A DNA stretch of 64,000 nt. Origin: Salinimicrobium sp. TH3 (GTDB lineage Bacteria > Bacteroidota > Bacteroidia > Flavobacteriales > Flavobacteriaceae). Below are positions 37,397 to 43,413 of the stretch, one piece after another. The DNA is taken from contig NZ_JAPONB010000009.1 in assembly GCF_026676115.1 (NCBI RefSeq), forward strand, positions 1-64,000. Reading direction: 5' to 3'. A model generated the notes under the pieces. That model was not told the DNA's origin and made no database searches. It saw only the letters and a list, made by a program, of their open reading frames with translations. The translations under genes and the position numbers were made by a program. The stretch's first letter is position 1. Each line of letters starts with the position of its first letter.

Positions 37397-39217
37397 TTAG
37401 AAAGGATATTTGTTTTCAGAAATTACTTTTTCGGCAATTGTCTTACGAAGTTCCACTACATTTGGATGGTTCTCATATTTGGTGAATCTCTTCAAGCCCA
37501 TCAACATCATTCTTTGTTCATCTCCTTCAGCAAAAGAAACGATTCCTTCCTTGGCTTTTTGGTTTATAGTGTCAACAGCGTGATATAAATACAATTTCGA
37601 CATTGCAATTTGTTCTTTCTGACTGTCGGCGCCAAAACGGTTAACATTTTTCTCTGTCCTAAGAATAGTAGACTCGGCCATATAGATCTCGATAAGAATA
37701 TCGGCAGAAGCCAGCAGCAACTGTTGGTGATCTTCAAGCTGAGGTCCAAATTTTTGAACAGCACTACCTGCAACCATCAAAAATACTTTTTTCAACTTTT
37801 TCACCATTTCCTTTTCTTCGGCAAAAAGCTCTGAATAATCTGGCTTGTCAAAAGAAGGAATTCCGGTGAGTTCTTCTCCAACTTTAGTCGCTGGTCCAAG
37901 AAGGTCCACGTGTCCTTTCATGGCCTTTTTCACGAGCATTCCCACACAAAGCATGCGGTTGATTTCATTAGTACCTTCATAAATCCTGGTAATTCTCGCA
38001 TCTCTCCAAGCAGATTCCATAGGAGCATCGGCCGAGAAGCCCATTCCCCCAAAGATCTGTATACCTTCATCTGTACAATTCTGAAGATCTTCTGAAGCTG
38101 CAACCTTTAGGATGGAACACTCTATGGCGTATTCCTCAACTCCTTTCAACTCGGCTTCCTGGTGAGAATTCCCTTCTTCCTGACGGATGGAAATCCTGTC
38201 CTCAATATCTTTAGCAGCACGATATGAAGCAGATTCCCCTGCATAAGCCGAAGTTGCCATTTCGGCTAATTTCGACTGAACAGCACCAAAATTGGCTATT
38301 GGAGTTTTAAACTGTACGCGCTCATTTGCGTATTTTACTGAAGCATCGATTGATCGGCGTTGTGCGTCCAAACAAGCTCCGGCTAGTTTTATACGTCCTA
38401 CGTTTAGAGCATTCATCGCGATCTTGAAACCGCTCCCTCTTTCTGAAAGCATATTCTCTACCGGAACTTTTGTGTCGTTAAAGAACACCTGCCGGGTAGA
38501 GGAGGAGTGGATTCCCAGTTTCTTTTCTTCTTCTCCCAACGAGATTCCATTTGGATTTTCGGAATCATATTCCACTATAAATCCGGTGATGTTTTTATCA
38601 TCTTCAATTCGGGCGAATACGATCATCATGTTGCAGAAGCCCGCATTGGAGATCCACATTTTTTGTCCGGTGATGTTGTAATATTTTCCATCTTCAGAAA
38701 GAACTGCTTTGGTCTTTCCTGAATTTGCATCACTACCTGCTCCTGGTTCTGTCAAGGCATAAGCTCCAAACCATTCTCCTGTGGCAAGCTTCGGAAGATA
38801 TTTTTTCTTCTGCTCTTCATTCCCGTAGAGCGTGATTGGAAGTGTTCCAATCCCCGAATGTGCTCCAAAAGCGGTGGAAAATGATCCCGTAGCACCCGAA
38901 ATATAATCTACCACAAGCATAGTAGTGACAAAACCCATTCCCAAGCCATCGTATTCTTCGGGTACCGAAACTCCCAAAAAGCCCATTTCCCCGGCCTTTT
39001 TCATAAGATCTTCGGTAAGTTCATAATTTTTCTTTTCAAATTCTTCCCTTCTTGGCATCAATTCGCGATTCACGAATTCCTGCACCGAATCCCGCATCAT
39101 TTTTTGCTCATCAGTGAAATCTTCCGGAGTAAATACATCCTCTGCCTTAGTCTCCTTTACCAGGAATTGCCCTCCGCGTAGAAGGTCTTTCTTGTTACTA
39201 TTGGTTTGTGTGCTCAT
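37397..39217 (-). CDS. Acyl-CoA dehydrogenase, long form
   Basis: A 606-residue flavoenzyme for the first step of beta-oxidation. The core acyl-CoA dehydrogenase domain spans about 35-420, with the FAD-binding ALTEPGAGSDANSG motif and the catalytic Glu region RIYEGTNEINRM. About 170 C-terminal residues extend beyond classical 380-residue enzymes, as in very-long-chain dehydrogenases. It is the last gene of the operon. The 103-bp gap from the thiolase gene is filled with CTAG-rich repeats. Confidence 0.93.
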   Translation of the reverse strand: MSTQTNSNKKDLLRGGQFLVKETKAEDVFTPEDFTDEQKMMRDSVQEFVNRELMPRREEFEKKNYELTEDLMKKAGEMGFLGVSVPEEYDGLGMGFVTTMLVVDYISGATGSFSTAFGAHSGIGTLPITLYGNEEQKKKYLPKLATGEWFGAYALTEPGAGSDANSGKTKAVLSEDGKYYNITGQKMWISNAGFCNMMIVFARIEDDKNITGFIVEYDSENPNGISLGEEEKKLGIHSSSTRQVFFNDTKVPVENMLSERGSGFKIAMNALNVGRIKLAGACLDAQRRSIDASVKYANERVQFKTPIANFGAVQSKLAEMATSAYAGESASYRAAKDIEDRISIRQEEGNSHQEAELKGVEEYAIECSILKVAASEDLQNCTDEGIQIFGGMGFSADAPMESAWRDARITRIYEGTNEINRMLCVGMLVKKAMKGHVDLLGPATKVGEELTGIPSFDKPDYSELFAEEKEMVKKLKKVFLMVAGSAVQKFGPQLEDHQQLLLASADILIEIYMAESTILRTEKNVNRFGADSQKEQIAMSKLYLYHAVDTINQKAKEGIVSFAEGDEQRMMLMGLKRFTKYENHPNVVELRKTIAEKVISENKYPF

Positions 39218-39234
39218 TTTGTTTTTTTTTAGAA

Positions 39235-39311
39235 CCTAGACTTCTAGAACCTAGAGCCTAGACTGGTTTTGTTTTAATTGGAAAGTCTAGTATCTAGACT
39301 CTAGTCTCTAA
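39235..39311. repeat. CTAG heptad arrays between thiolase and acyl-CoA dehydrogenase genes
   Basis: CTAG recurs at 39236, 39244, 39251 and 39258, then at 39287, 39294 and 39301, with a degenerate CTAA at 39308. Spacing is 7 nt apart from one 8-nt step and the gap between the two blocks. The second block shares 20 identical bases with the array at 40946. CTAG is usually a scarce tetranucleotide, so chance clustering is unlikely. Confidence 0.8.
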
Positions 39312-39320
39312 TATCTTTTT

Positions 39321-40514
39321 CTACGACAGGAATTCAAAAACTCCCGCGGCTCCCTGTCCTGTTCCTACGCACATGGTTACCATTCCGTATTTATTTTTCA
39401 GTTCACGTTTGCGCATTTCATCAAACAACTGAACTGAAAGTTTGGCTCCTGTACATCCAAGTGGATGGCCCATTGAAATAGCTCCTCCGTTGGGGTTCAT
39501 GCGGTCCATATCTAATCCAAGTTCTCGAATTACTGCTAAAGATTGAGATGCAAAGGCTTCATTAAGCTCGATCAACTCAAGATCATTTAATTGAATTCCG
39601 GCTTGTTTAACAGCCTTTGGAATCGCATAAACAGGTCCTATCCCCATTATTCTTGGTTCAACCCCAACAGCCGAATAACTAACAAGTCTGGCTACAGGCT
39701 CCAGATTTAATTCCTTCACCATTTCTTCGCTCATGACCATGACGAAAGCAGCACCATCACTCATTTGAGAAGAGTTACCAGCGGTCACACTTCCACCCTC
39801 CTCAAAAACGGGACGTAGTTTTCCTAATACTTCTCTGGAAGTATCGGCTCTTGGTCCTTCATCTTTATTGACGGTATATGATTTTGTCTGTTTTTTGCCA
39901 TTTTCATCGACATAGGTTTGATCTACTGTGATCGGTACTATTTGATCCTGAAAACGATCTTCTTTTTGAGCTTTTAGAGACTTTTGGTGAGAGTTAAATG
40001 CGAACTCATCTTGATCTTCTCTCGAAACCTTATATTTTTGAGCAACTGCTTCTGCAGTTAATCCCATTCCCCAGTAATAATCTTCTTTTCCGGCTTTTGC
40101 AAGTTTATAATCGGGTACAGGTTTATAACCTCCCATAGGGATATAGCTCATGCTTTCTGCACCACCTGCAATTATACAGTTGGCCATACCGCTTTGGATC
40201 TTTGCTGTGGCGATTGCTATAGTCTCCAGGCCTGAAGCACAGTAGCGGTTTACAGTCATCCCGGGTACGTCTTCGGTCTTTAATCCCATGAGAGAGATAA
40301 AGCGCCCAACATTAAGTCCCTGTTCGGCTTCGGGCATCGCGTTCCCCACGATCACGTCATCAATTCGTTTTTTATCAAATTCGGGCAGCTTATCCATCAT
40401 AAACTGGATAGTTTCTGCCGCTAATTCATCTGGCCTTTTAAATCTGAATACCCCCCGTGGTGCTTTTCCCACTGCAGTTCGGTATCCTTTTACGATGTAA
40501 GCTGTTTTGTTCAT
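39321..40514 (-). CDS. fadA: Acetyl-CoA C-acyltransferase (3-ketoacyl-CoA thiolase)
   Basis: A 397-residue thiolase. The acyl-accepting Cys is C92 (NRYCASGLE); the C-terminal [15 protein letters not shown] and [10 protein letters not shown] motifs give the catalytic His and second Cys. It performs the last step of beta-oxidation, releasing acetyl-CoA. The gene lies in an operon between the four-helix-bundle gene and the dehydrogenase gene. A biosynthetic acetoacetyl-CoA thiolase role is less likely in this context. Confidence 0.93.
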
Positions 40515-40540
40515 AGTTCTAAATATTAATCTGAAAACGA

Positions 40541-40571
40541 GAGTCTGGAAACTAGAGCCTAGATTCTAGAC
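40541..40571. repeat. CTAG heptad array 3' of the four-helix-bundle gene
   Basis: CTAG at 40552, 40559 and 40566, all 7 nt apart, with a degenerate CTGG in phase at 40545. The array ends exactly at the stop codon of the four-helix-bundle gene. Confidence 0.8.
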
Positions 40572-40943
40572 TTAATCATTTCCAAGGTTGTCCATAAAGG
40601 AGCCTATCATTTTCTGTATTTGTAAAATCTTATTTTCCAGTTCTTCAAATCTTTCCTTAGAAAGAAAGTTTTCATTGTAGGCGACAATTAGTTGTGTTTC
40701 CCATTCAAAAGCCGACCCAAGACTGTTCTCCAAAAACTTTTTAAAATGCCTGTCGGTACTTTTGCTGGAGCCTTCAGCTATGTTAGAAGGAATAGAAACG
40801 GCACAACGGTTTAACTGACTTATTAAATTGAATCTTTCACTATCAGGCAATGTTCGGGTAAGTTTATAGCTTTCCCCAACAAGAGCAATCCCCTCATTCC
40901 AGATCTTTAATTTTTTAAAATTATGTCGTCCCATTTTCTCCAT
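40572..40943 (-). CDS. Four-helix-bundle protein (23S rRNA intervening-sequence/S23 family)
   Basis: A 123-residue helical protein with the family pattern FKKLKIWNEGIALV at the start, FNLISQLNRCAVSIPSNIAEGSS in the middle and an FLENSLGSAFEWETQL helix. Relatives are found inside 23S rRNA intervening sequences, scattered in Bacteroidota genomes, and as accessory proteins of diversity-generating retroelements; biochemical role unknown, probably nucleic-acid binding. Here it is inserted in a fatty-acid operon with CTAG-heptad arrays abutting its stop codon and its start codon. Start may be 40943 or the Met at 40934. It has no known role in beta-oxidation, so it looks like a cargo gene. Confidence 0.85.
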   Translation of the reverse strand: MEKMGRHNFKKLKIWNEGIALVGESYKLTRTLPDSERFNLISQLNRCAVSIPSNIAEGSSKSTDRHFKKFLENSLGSAFEWETQLIVAYNENFLSKERFEELENKILQIQKMIGSFMDNLGND

Positions 40944-40945
40944 TC

Positions 40946-40972
40946 GTCTAGTATCTAGACTCTAGATTCTAG
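40946..40972. repeat. CTAG heptad array between fadB-like and four-helix-bundle genes
   Basis: Four TCTAG units at 40947, 40954, 40961 and 40968, each exactly 7 nt from the next. The last unit supplies the TAG stop codon of the upstream fadB-like gene (minus strand), and the array ends 2 bp before the four-helix-bundle start codon. Confidence 0.85.
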
Positions 40973-43374
40973 TTTCTTAAAGGTTTACCTTTTTGCAACA
41001 TATGCTGCAACCTCTCCAGTGTCTTCTTTTCTCCCGTAAGAGATAAAAATGCTTCTCTTTCCAGATCAAGCAGATATTGCTCACTCACATAAGAATTTTC
41101 GGAAAGATCTCCTCCCGCCATCACGTAGGCGAGTTTGTTGGCGATCTTCTTGTCATGTTCGCTAATGTACTTACCGGCGAACATCTGATCTGTACCTACT
41201 AAAAAGGCTCCCAGTGCCTGTTTACCTAATACCTTAATGTCTTTTCTCATAATAGGCTTGGTATAACCGTTTTCTGCCATGAGAAGCGCGTGTTTCTTAG
41301 CAATTGCTAACTGACGATCGGGGTTTATTACCACAATGTCTTTTCCTTTCTGAAGGATATTAAGGTCGTAAGCTTCGTAAGCTGATGTAGAAACCTTTGC
41401 CATACCAATAGTAAGGAAATGTTCCCGCAGTCGGTTCAACTCCACATCATCCTTCTGGAAAGTATCAGCAGCACGTAAGGTCATTTCCTTGGAGCCTCCA
41501 CCGCCGGGAATCACCCCAACTCCAAATTCTACAAGTCCGATGTACGTTTCAGCCGCGGCGACTACTTTATCTGCGTGTAAGGAAAGTTCACATCCACCAC
41601 CCAAAGTCATAGCGTGTGGTGCTGCAACTGTTGGAATTGAAGAATAGCGCATTCTCATCATGGTGTCCTGGAAATATTTTATAGCCATATTAAGCTCGTC
41701 ATATTCCTGCTCTACAGCCATCATGAAGATCATCCCAATATTGGCTCCTACAGAAAAGTTCTTTCCGGTGTTGGCTACAACCAGTCCCTGATAATCTTTT
41801 TCTGCCATATCAATGGCCTTGTTCAAACCATCGAGTACATCGCCTCCAATAGAGTTCATTTTACTGCGGAATTCCACATTAAGGATTCCGTCACCAAGAT
41901 CTTCTACCACAACTCCGCTGTTGCTGAAGACTTCTTTAGATTCCCTGATGTTGTCAAGGATAATGAAAGCATCCTGTCCCGGGATCTTTTTGTATTCCTT
42001 TGAAGGAATGTCGTAATACCAGGTATTTCCTTCTTTTACGGTGTAGAAATTCTTGTTTCCATTCTCGAGCATCTCCTTCACCCAGGCTGCAGGCTCTTTA
42101 CCTTCAGCTTTCATGATCTCGATTCCTTTTTCCACACCAATGGCATCCCAAATCTGGAAGGGTCCATGTTCCCAACCGTAACCGGCTTTCATGGCATCAT
42201 CGATCTTGTAAAGTTCATCTGTGATTTCAGGAATACGTTTTGAGGAATAAGTAAAAATAGCGGCGAAATTCTTTCTGTAGAACTCTCCTGCTTTGTCTTT
42301 TCCATCAACAAGAACTTTAAATCTGTCCTCTACTTTATCAATCGTTTTCGTTAATTCAAGAGTAGCAAAATTTGCTTTTTTCTGAGATCTGTATTCCAAA
42401 GTGTTGAGGTCGAGTGATTGTATTTCACTTGAACCGTCGTCTTTTTTTATCTTTTTATAGAACCCTTGCCCGCTTTTGCTCCCAAACCATTCATTGTCGA
42501 CCATAGTATTAATATAGTCGGGCATGGCGTAGAGATCGTGCTCTTCATCTGTGGGTACTCCTTTGTGAAGACCTTCGGCAACATGTTTAAGAGTATCCAG
42601 TCCTACAAGGTCAACAGTTCTAAAAGTGGCAGATTTTTGTCTTCCAATTACAGGGCCTGTAAGTTTATCAACCTCCTCAATAGTAAGGTCCAGTTCCTTC
42701 ACCATGTGGAAAAGGCTCATGATGCTATAAGTACCAATCCTGTTCCCAATAAAGGCCGGCGTATCTTTTGCGACAACCGATTTCTTTCCCAGGAATTTCT
42801 CACCGTACTCATTCAGGAATTCCAAAACTTCTTCGGAAGTGTCTGGCCCCGGAATAATTTCAAAAAGTCTTAGATAACGTGGTGGGTTGAAGAAGTGTGT
42901 TCCGCAGAAGTGTCTTTGGAAATCTTCACTTCGACCCTCATTCATCTGCTGAATAGGGATACCGGAAGTATTTGAAGTTATTAAAGTACCTGGTTTGCGG
43001 TATTTTTCGAGGTTATCAAAAACCTTCTTTTTGATATCCAGTCGCTCCACAACCACTTCCATGATCCAGTCAACTTCCGAAACCTTAGAGATATCATCCT
43101 CCAGGTTCCCCGTTTTAATACGATTTGCAAAGTCTTTATGATAAATAGGAGAGGGCTTGGATTTTAGGGCGTCTTGTAAAGAGGTATTTACAATTCGGTT
43201 TCTTACCTGCTTGTCATCCATGGTAAGACCCTGTTTCTTTTCCTTTTCTGTTAGCTCTCTCGGCACAATATCCAGCAGTAAAACTTCCACTCCAATATTG
43301 GCGAAGTGACATGCAATCCCGCTGCCCATAATACCCGAGCCTATTATTGCAACTTTGTTAATTCGTCTTTTCAT
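40969..43374 (-). CDS. fadB: 3-hydroxyacyl-CoA dehydrogenase/enoyl-CoA hydratase fusion
   Basis: An 801-residue bifunctional beta-oxidation enzyme. The NAD-binding domain comes first (VAIIGSGIMGSGIACHF, about 7-23), then the dehydrogenase C-domains to about 430, and the enoyl-CoA hydratase (crotonase) domain at about 490-720 (APHAMTLGGGCELSLHAD). This order is the reverse of E. coli FadB and matches the longer family found in Bacteroidota and many other bacteria. The start at 43374 (MKRRINK) is preferred to one 8 codons upstream. The stop codon lies in the CTAG array. It follows the MarR gene after 39 bp. Confidence 0.92.
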   Translation of the reverse strand: MKRRINKVAIIGSGIMGSGIACHFANIGVEVLLLDIVPRELTEKEKKQGLTMDDKQVRNRIVNTSLQDALKSKPSPIYHKDFANRIKTGNLEDDISKVSEVDWIMEVVVERLDIKKKVFDNLEKYRKPGTLITSNTSGIPIQQMNEGRSEDFQRHFCGTHFFNPPRYLRLFEIIPGPDTSEEVLEFLNEYGEKFLGKKSVVAKDTPAFIGNRIGTYSIMSLFHMVKELDLTIEEVDKLTGPVIGRQKSATFRTVDLVGLDTLKHVAEGLHKGVPTDEEHDLYAMPDYINTMVDNEWFGSKSGQGFYKKIKKDDGSSEIQSLDLNTLEYRSQKKANFATLELTKTIDKVEDRFKVLVDGKDKAGEFYRKNFAAIFTYSSKRIPEITDELYKIDDAMKAGYGWEHGPFQIWDAIGVEKGIEIMKAEGKEPAAWVKEMLENGNKNFYTVKEGNTWYYDIPSKEYKKIPGQDAFIILDNIRESKEVFSNSGVVVEDLGDGILNVEFRSKMNSIGGDVLDGLNKAIDMAEKDYQGLVVANTGKNFSVGANIGMIFMMAVEQEYDELNMAIKYFQDTMMRMRYSSIPTVAAPHAMTLGGGCELSLHADKVVAAAETYIGLVEFGVGVIPGGGGSKEMTLRAADTFQKDDVELNRLREHFLTIGMAKVSTSAYEAYDLNILQKGKDIVVINPDRQLAIAKKHALLMAENGYTKPIMRKDIKVLGKQALGAFLVGTDQMFAGKYISEHDKKIANKLAYVMAGGDLSENSYVSEQYLLDLEREAFLSLTGEKKTLERLQHMLQKGKPLRN

Positions 43375-43413
43375 GTTAATATAAATTTTGACGATCACCG
43401 GGGGTGACCTTTA

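Follow-up and report, generated by a model that had tools for sequence, protein, structure and literature searches.

The closest described counterparts of the locus reported here are the intervening sequences (IVSs) of 23S rRNA genes that carry an S23p/IVP reading frame, as in Leptospira and Coxiella, and the arrays of heptamers that lie in the spacers of some bacterial genomes. For the protein-coding IVS of Coxiella, the accessible text of PMC4990558 describes an insert that is bounded by a hairpin with a 28-bp stem and excised by RNase III. Arrays of TAACTGA and other heptamers occur in Beggiatoaceae, cyanobacteria and some Bacteroidetes; the accessible text of PMC4679880 treats them as direct repeats (with one indirect case in the genome described there) and, on how they are transferred, states that 'no mechanism is evident'; the terms 'four helix' and 'intervening sequence' are absent from its main text. 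Degenerate heptads (TDNGATT / NNTGAGT) belonging to replaceable motif classes also build the P6b hairpin stem of the Nostoc trnL intron (PMC4476775). Heptamer arrays and IVSs are each already known; full-text literature searches, with subscription journals and preprints outside their coverage, found no paper linking the PF05635 family with heptad arms. Two old puzzles, the role of the S23/IVP protein and the 7-nt spacer arrays, are linked in the same loci, and because they share these loci, both become testable in ordinary flavobacteria.

The window, the whole 64,000-nt stretch of Salinimicrobium sp. TH3 DNA that was analyzed, contains a minus-strand fatty-acid oxidation operon in the order FadB-like gene, four-helix-bundle gene, thiolase and acyl-CoA dehydrogenase. 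The features are as follows:

40969 to 43398, minus strand: host gene for a FadB-like 3-hydroxyacyl-CoA dehydrogenase/enoyl-CoA hydratase (listed NCBIfam matches below their cut-offs)
40944 to 40978, minus strand: 5' heptad arm, in gene sense CTAGAAT CTAGAGT CTAGATA CTAGACG, including the fadB stop codon (letters; predicted fold)
40572 to 40943, minus strand: four-helix-bundle gene (PF05635 23S_rRNA_IVP / TIGR02436), 123 aa (profile match E 8.6e-35; TIGR02436; AlphaFold pLDDT 94.8; nearest solved structure 2GSC)
40540 to 40571, minus strand: 3' heptad arm, complementary to the 5' arm and placed before the thiolase start (letters; predicted fold)
39321 to 40514, minus strand: host gene for acetyl-CoA C-acyltransferase (thiolase) (TIGR01930 above cut-off)
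39283 to 39317, minus strand: 5' arm of a hollow (gene-less) CTAG hairpin in the thiolase/acyl-CoA dehydrogenase spacer (letters; predicted fold)
39230 to 39263, minus strand: 3' arm of the hollow CTAG hairpin (letters; predicted fold)
37397 to 39217, minus strand: host gene for acyl-CoA dehydrogenase (NF058590 above cut-off)

The CTAG heptads that the first-pass annotation had reported at three sites are confirmed as real and beyond chance. Specifically, CTAG starts at 40948, 40955, 40962 and 40969 in the first array (four units), at 40552, 40559 and 40566 in the second (where 40545 has a degenerate CTGG), and at 39236, 39244, 39251 and 39258 and again at 39287, 39294 and 39301 in the gene-less site, where the first gap of the first block is 8 rather than 7. 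All five copies of CTAGNNNCTAGNNNCTAG in the window fall within the reported region, with 0 in 100 shuffles, and scanning for period 7 irrespective of the word (18 of 24 matches) found two arrays in the 64 kb, both at this locus. Across the whole genome, the triple CTAG motif has 13 matches in five places, counting the window once, and a backwards control pattern has 3. The arrays do abut the ends of the four-helix-bundle gene, as had been claimed: its frame lies 4 nt from one and 2 nt from the other, and the FadB-like frame ends at 40969, with its TAG stop inside the last CTAG unit.

What the first-pass annotation missed is that these arrays are inverted arms. The reverse complement of the downstream array reads CTGGAAA CTAGAGC CTAGATT CTAGACT, matching the upstream array in gene sense; the two arrays are the arms of one inverted repeat that holds the gene in its loop. 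In a predicted RNA fold, run with no shuffle control, 27 of the 35 left-arm bases pair with the right arm, a stem of complementary insert ends like that of an IVS. The pair at 39230-39317, likewise not recognized as a hairpin, has arms of this type too but encloses no gene (26 of 35 bases paired in a predicted RNA fold, again with no shuffle control), and the spacer containing this hollow hairpin is 91.5% identical in genome G003. Elsewhere in the window's own genome, at C21:130818-130971 (L010, L084, L233), inverted CTAG arms lie about 75-85 nt apart around a terminator-like hairpin, a second hollow, gene-less element.

The locus shares with the 23S rRNA IVSs its protein family, the complementary ends of the insert, recurrent places of insertion and a patchy distribution. 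It differs from them in that its host is a protein operon (no Rfam family matches within 38900-41400, so this insert, between fadB and thiolase, is not inside a 23S rRNA gene), in that gene-less copies and solo arms exist, and in that its arms have a 7-nt period, which the accessible text of PMC4990558 does not mention for IVSs. With the TAACTGA-type arrays, as far as they are described in the accessible text of PMC4679880, it shares 7-nt units, location in spacers, orientation towards a start codon, mixed words and 7-nt indels; unlike those direct repeats, its arms are inverted, and its word is CTAGAnn. The Nostoc P6b stem is likewise a hairpin of heptads, but it sits inside a group I intron, and no protein gene is reported for it in the accessible text of PMC4476775.

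The encoded protein belongs to the PF05635 and TIGR02436 families, scoring 119.6 bits against a cut-off of 33.8 and 111.6 bits against a cut-off of 24, respectively. A Foldseek search with its AlphaFold model (pLDDT 94.8) gave 2GSC as the best match (E 1.2e-6, TM 0.84), indicating a four-helix fold like that of 2GSC and 2RLD; 2GSC is the structure of a Xanthomonas campestris relative, which is a homopentamer according to the accessible text of PMC4990558. The fold also matches Avd in the reverse-transcriptase complexes of diversity-generating retroelements (TM 0.68-0.78, E 0.02 and worse), and there is a weak Pfam match to bAvd (E 6e-4), although the protein falls below both profile cut-offs (19.9 bits vs 80 for Avd and 20.7 bits vs 40 for bAvd). 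Recognition of the arrays by this protein, the role that the first-pass annotation had given it, is a candidate function, hinted at by the Avd-like fold and by a weak correlation, over 54 loci, between protein similarity and shared arm words (rho 0.16, permutation p 0.004). The differing words of the copies within one genome and a net charge near zero (median 0 over the profile-matched region) argue against it. Among phages, no relative of the protein of locus L093 was found at E 1e-3.

The arms are a property of this gene family rather than of the window alone. Relatives and a class-wide sample together supplied 68 loci, of which 43 have a flank that reaches 18 of 24 matches at lag 7; each of the other lags from 4 to 13 does so at 0-5 loci, and lag 14 at 31. 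In the genome collection, 44 of the 80 named loci reached the same level at lag 7, compared with 17 of 320 same-locus control windows; multiples of 7 aside, the runner-up was lag 8, in 11 loci. Measured against the same-locus controls, the inverted match between flanks lay above the 99th percentile at 42 of 53 loci in Bacteroidota, 3 of 4 in Balneolota/Ignavibacteria and 17 of 23 elsewhere; going by record titles, the last group includes Verrucomicrobia, Planctomycetes, Lentisphaerae, Ruminococcus, Thiobacillus and Thiohalocapsa. Many of the records are metagenome bins, so that individual assignments may be wrong.

Because the same-locus control windows are mostly coding DNA, the test was redone with control genes from nine genomes rich in the PF05635 family, each flanked on either side by 40 nt or more of noncoding sequence, under a joint criterion of an inverted match of at least 28 and a period-7 signal of at least 16 of 24. 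This joint signal was present at 96 of 156 four-helix genes (159 loci less 3 dropped for short flanks; orthologous loci are included, so the loci are not independent) and at 2 of 421 other genes, or 1 of 137 when control genes were limited to 600 nt; a period-7 array alone was found at 39 of the 421. The enrichment of arrays at four-helix genes that the first-pass annotation predicted is borne out by these counts and by the own genome, where nine of nine copies have an array within 260 nt. The joint signal is missing at 60 of the 156 genes. With a looser flank length, the joint signal was seen in 28/53 named Bacteroidota, 2/4 Balneolota/Ignavibacteria, 14/23 loci of other phyla, 9/11 plasmid loci, 19/30 of the class sample, 19/29 of the relatives and 6/9 of the own-genome copies, the other three of which have no matching second arm. 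A gene between matching heptad arms recurs in many kinds of bacteria, in what looks like one widespread hitch-hiking element, and the arms offer a simple annotation rule for many genes labelled 'four helix bundle protein'. The host sites are unrelated (fad, ffh/folD, iscA/sufB, cas6/cas4, nrd and 23S rRNA). On cyanobacterial plasmids of Pseudanabaena and Anabaena (L204, L207), the four-helix gene and its heptad arms lie between cas6 and cas4; on the Nostoc edaphicum plasmid pNe_5 (L203), the element sits antisense between the genes for the two subunits of ribonucleotide reductase, and its GGGAGTA arms are nearly perfect.

One locus ties the arms directly to the classical system. On an Azospirillum lipoferum plasmid (L212), the gene and its GAGGACG/GATGACA arms lie inside a 23S rRNA gene, a single Rfam LSU_rRNA match spanning both sides, and the insert is flanked by what we take to be helix 45. 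This is a classical protein-coding IVS, and the period of its arms is again 7 nt. Of the 159 loci, no other was placed in 23S rRNA by blastn with one alphaproteobacterial 23S query.

The heptad words themselves vary from locus to locus. CTAG, which the first-pass annotation took as the key, was rejected as such, being one word among many: the arms of inserted genes carry CTAGAnn, CAAGAnn, TGAGTAT, TGAGATT, GTATAATG-like and AAAGAATA-like heptads, and the nine four-helix copies of the own genome have several different words. What stays constant across loci, whatever the word, is the 7-nt period together with the inverted layout. At L258 (G000 C15:129863-130476), CAAGAAT-type and CAGTGNT-type arrays alternate three times, 160-300 nt apart, perhaps as a larger tandem unit of heptad arms, and at L263 (G011 C45:233689-233997) about 300 nt consist mostly of AAGGTTT heptads, a single-word expansion.

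The fatty-acid oxidation operon is a recurrent home of the element: with both neighbors confirmed, one or other of its two spacers houses 11 of the 80 named loci and 6 of the 30 in the class sample. A survey of 40 genomes, 33 with a thiolase match and 32 read (the own genome included and one distant genome left out), placed a four-helix gene in one or both spacers of 17 operons by tblastn with the window protein: in 14 in the fadB/thiolase spacer, in 7 in the thiolase/dehydrogenase spacer and in 4 in both. In the other 15 operons, tblastn found no such gene; several spacers are only 3-18 nt long, and a few of the gene-less spacers contain heptad hairpins. The thiolase/dehydrogenase spacer of G028 (L079) has a 556-nt insert with no four-helix match and, by eye, another short reading frame. 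The view that the gene is not fixed in this operon holds across the 32 operons, but not within the genus, where the fadB/thiolase spacer is occupied in all 11 congeners read.

That spacer is nevertheless filled by distant copies with different arms, between flanks up to 93% identical. G000 and G007 share 90-93% DNA identity in the flanking genes, whereas their inserts are at chance-level DNA identity and encode proteins that are 37% identical. The pairs G000-G006 and G008-G002 show the reverse, with flanks 78-82% and inserts 92-93% identical; at third codon positions, identity between G000 and G006 is 53% in fadB and 81% in the insert gene. In four congeners, the high insert identity extends about 150 nt into thiolase, so that homologous recombination of a tract can explain those transfers. 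Presence also varies at other sites: the element is at ffh/folD in 9 of 12 congeners, with spacers of 61-115 nt in its place in the other 3, and at iscA/sufB in 9 of 10 congeners read, the remaining one having a 128-nt spacer. On a quick and poorly resolved tree of 160 proteins (L034 left out), the fadB/thiolase site label changes 12 times, against a shuffled mean of 23. Neither a target duplication nor a clean empty site was seen in the congener comparisons, the congeners having diverged too far for duplications to be read. Complementarity of arms within an element did not significantly exceed that between elements at ffh/folD (p 0.053) or iscA/sufB (p 0.11); at fadB/thiolase, it did (p 0.0002), although several element types are mixed there.

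We read 40540-40978, with a probability of roughly 0.6, as one compact IVS-type element, a PF05635 gene between inverted heptad arms, seated in an operon spacer rather than in an rRNA helix. The anatomy, the specificity of the arms to the PF05635 family, the spread over phyla, the one 23S rRNA case, the presence/absence and replacement between relatives and the gene-less hairpins are all observed. The earlier view of a repeat-bracketed, apparently mobile unit alien to fatty-acid breakdown is upheld, and the first-pass interpretation as a whole is partly supported. In the operon transcript, the arms would pair and hold the fadB end close to the thiolase start; RNase III may then cut the stem, such that the insert is tolerated and a small mRNA is freed. 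The four-helix protein, a pentamer if it resembles its solved relative and with an Avd-like fold, would bind the hairpin RNA and, together with an enzyme provided in trans, help to place copies of the unit in further short spacers. On this view, solo arrays and hollow hairpins would derive from such elements, either through decay or as parasites, and the heptad words probably drift by 7-nt slippage, the arms being kept matched mainly by word and not base by base.

An RNA-based element of this kind is favored by the placement of the arms (the 5' arm ends near the gene start and the 3' arm before the start of the next gene), by the direction shared with both neighbors in 66 of the 83 loci where both are known, by the polarity of the arms, by the RNase III precedent in Coxiella and by the 2GSC/Avd fold. 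Left arms have 30% G and 10% C and right arms 30% C and 8% G, the inward strand being G-rich and C-poor on both sides (right C>G in 69/78, left G>C in 54/63), a fixed polarity that would prevent an arm from pairing with itself. Against it stand the neutral charge of the protein, the lack of a G-U bias and the weak register match: among arm mismatches at 116 loci, 150 are of the wobble type vs 182 of the A-C type (p 0.09, in the wrong direction), giving no sign of selection on RNA base pairs, and heptad-by-heptad copying of register reaches p<0.05 at only 10 of 108 loci (combined p 0.003). The missing wobble bias, the inverted arms of fixed polarity, the hollow hairpins and dispersed word families and the antisense position between nrdB and nrdA in Nostoc would all suit the main rival, an element acting at the level of DNA, whose arms would be terminal inverted repeats, read either as DNA or as hairpins of single-stranded DNA; a trans-acting transposase or replication enzyme would move the unit, with the four-helix protein as helper or cargo and the hollow hairpins as MITE-like (REPIN-like) copies. 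REPINs, reportedly small hairpins scattered in spacers and tied to a gene family, the RAYTs, resemble the window element in this respect; RAYT is a Y1 transposase, unlike the window protein, a four-helix bundle without known catalysis. Of the features of an insertion sequence or MITE, the window locus has the inverted arms, and a duplication is unreadable at congener divergence. We consider this rival unlikely, given that the unit has no transposase, no target duplication was seen, neighbors are co-directional in those 66 of 83 loci, and arm words differ among the copies of one genome, which a single enzyme would not read by sequence.

Less probable still is an origin of the arms as ordinary spacer repeats formed by heptanucleotide slippage, which template switching in quasi-palindromes would have made complementary, with the gene a bystander. 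Heptads are over-represented as simple repeats in many bacterial genomes, according to the accessible text of PMC4679880 and PMC4692102, solo gene-less arrays are frequent, and the register match is weak; yet the joint pattern occurs at just 2 of 421 other spacer-flanked genes of the same genomes, five genomes with no PF05635 gene show little or no period-7 excess over control periods, and the 23S IVS also has heptad arms. We give least credence to a regulatory module in which the arms control translation of the inserted and downstream genes. Translational regulation was proposed for TAACTGA arrays before start codons (accessible text of PMC4679880), and the arms do end near one start codon and precede the next, but the host genes are unrelated, and the gene is missing from 15 of 32 related operons. 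Beyond the reading of the window locus as an IVS-type element, we tentatively entertain a broader and doubtful possibility, that PF05635 proteins are the active component of an element family found across bacteria, which either writes 7-nt hairpin arms or spreads them. The pentamer would read the 7-bp-periodic hairpin by shape rather than sequence and drive an RNA-templated (Avd-like) spread; 23S rRNA IVSs, gene-less hairpins and the heptamer arrays known from Bacteroidetes, cyanobacteria and Beggiatoaceae would then represent different states of a single system.

Arrays are also common away from the gene. A 400-kb sample of the own genome (20 stretches, one picked for a known array; threshold 17 of 24) contained 24 period-7 arrays, 5 of them within 900 nt of a four-helix gene and 19 not beside one; of the latter, 4 form two hollow hairpins and the remaining 15 lack an inverted partner as well. 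In a comparison of 20 genomes, sampled at 100 kb apiece except for 400 kb of the own, those with more PF05635 genes have a higher density of arrays more than 1 kb from a detected family gene (rho 0.63, p 0.003) and also a larger excess of arrays over control periods (rho 0.78, p 5e-5), both uncorrected for phylogeny; for the control periods, rho is 0.05. Some gene-rich genomes are array-poor (G053 has 7 PF05635 genes yet 1 array per 100 kb), and one genome with no such gene (23% G+C) has many arrays at every tested period. At C2:120648-120665 of the own genome (L001, L085), a CTAG array ends a long frame, kynureninase-like by eye, and is followed by SFEDLKMWK, which, again by eye, resembles the start of a four-helix protein and is perhaps a decayed copy.
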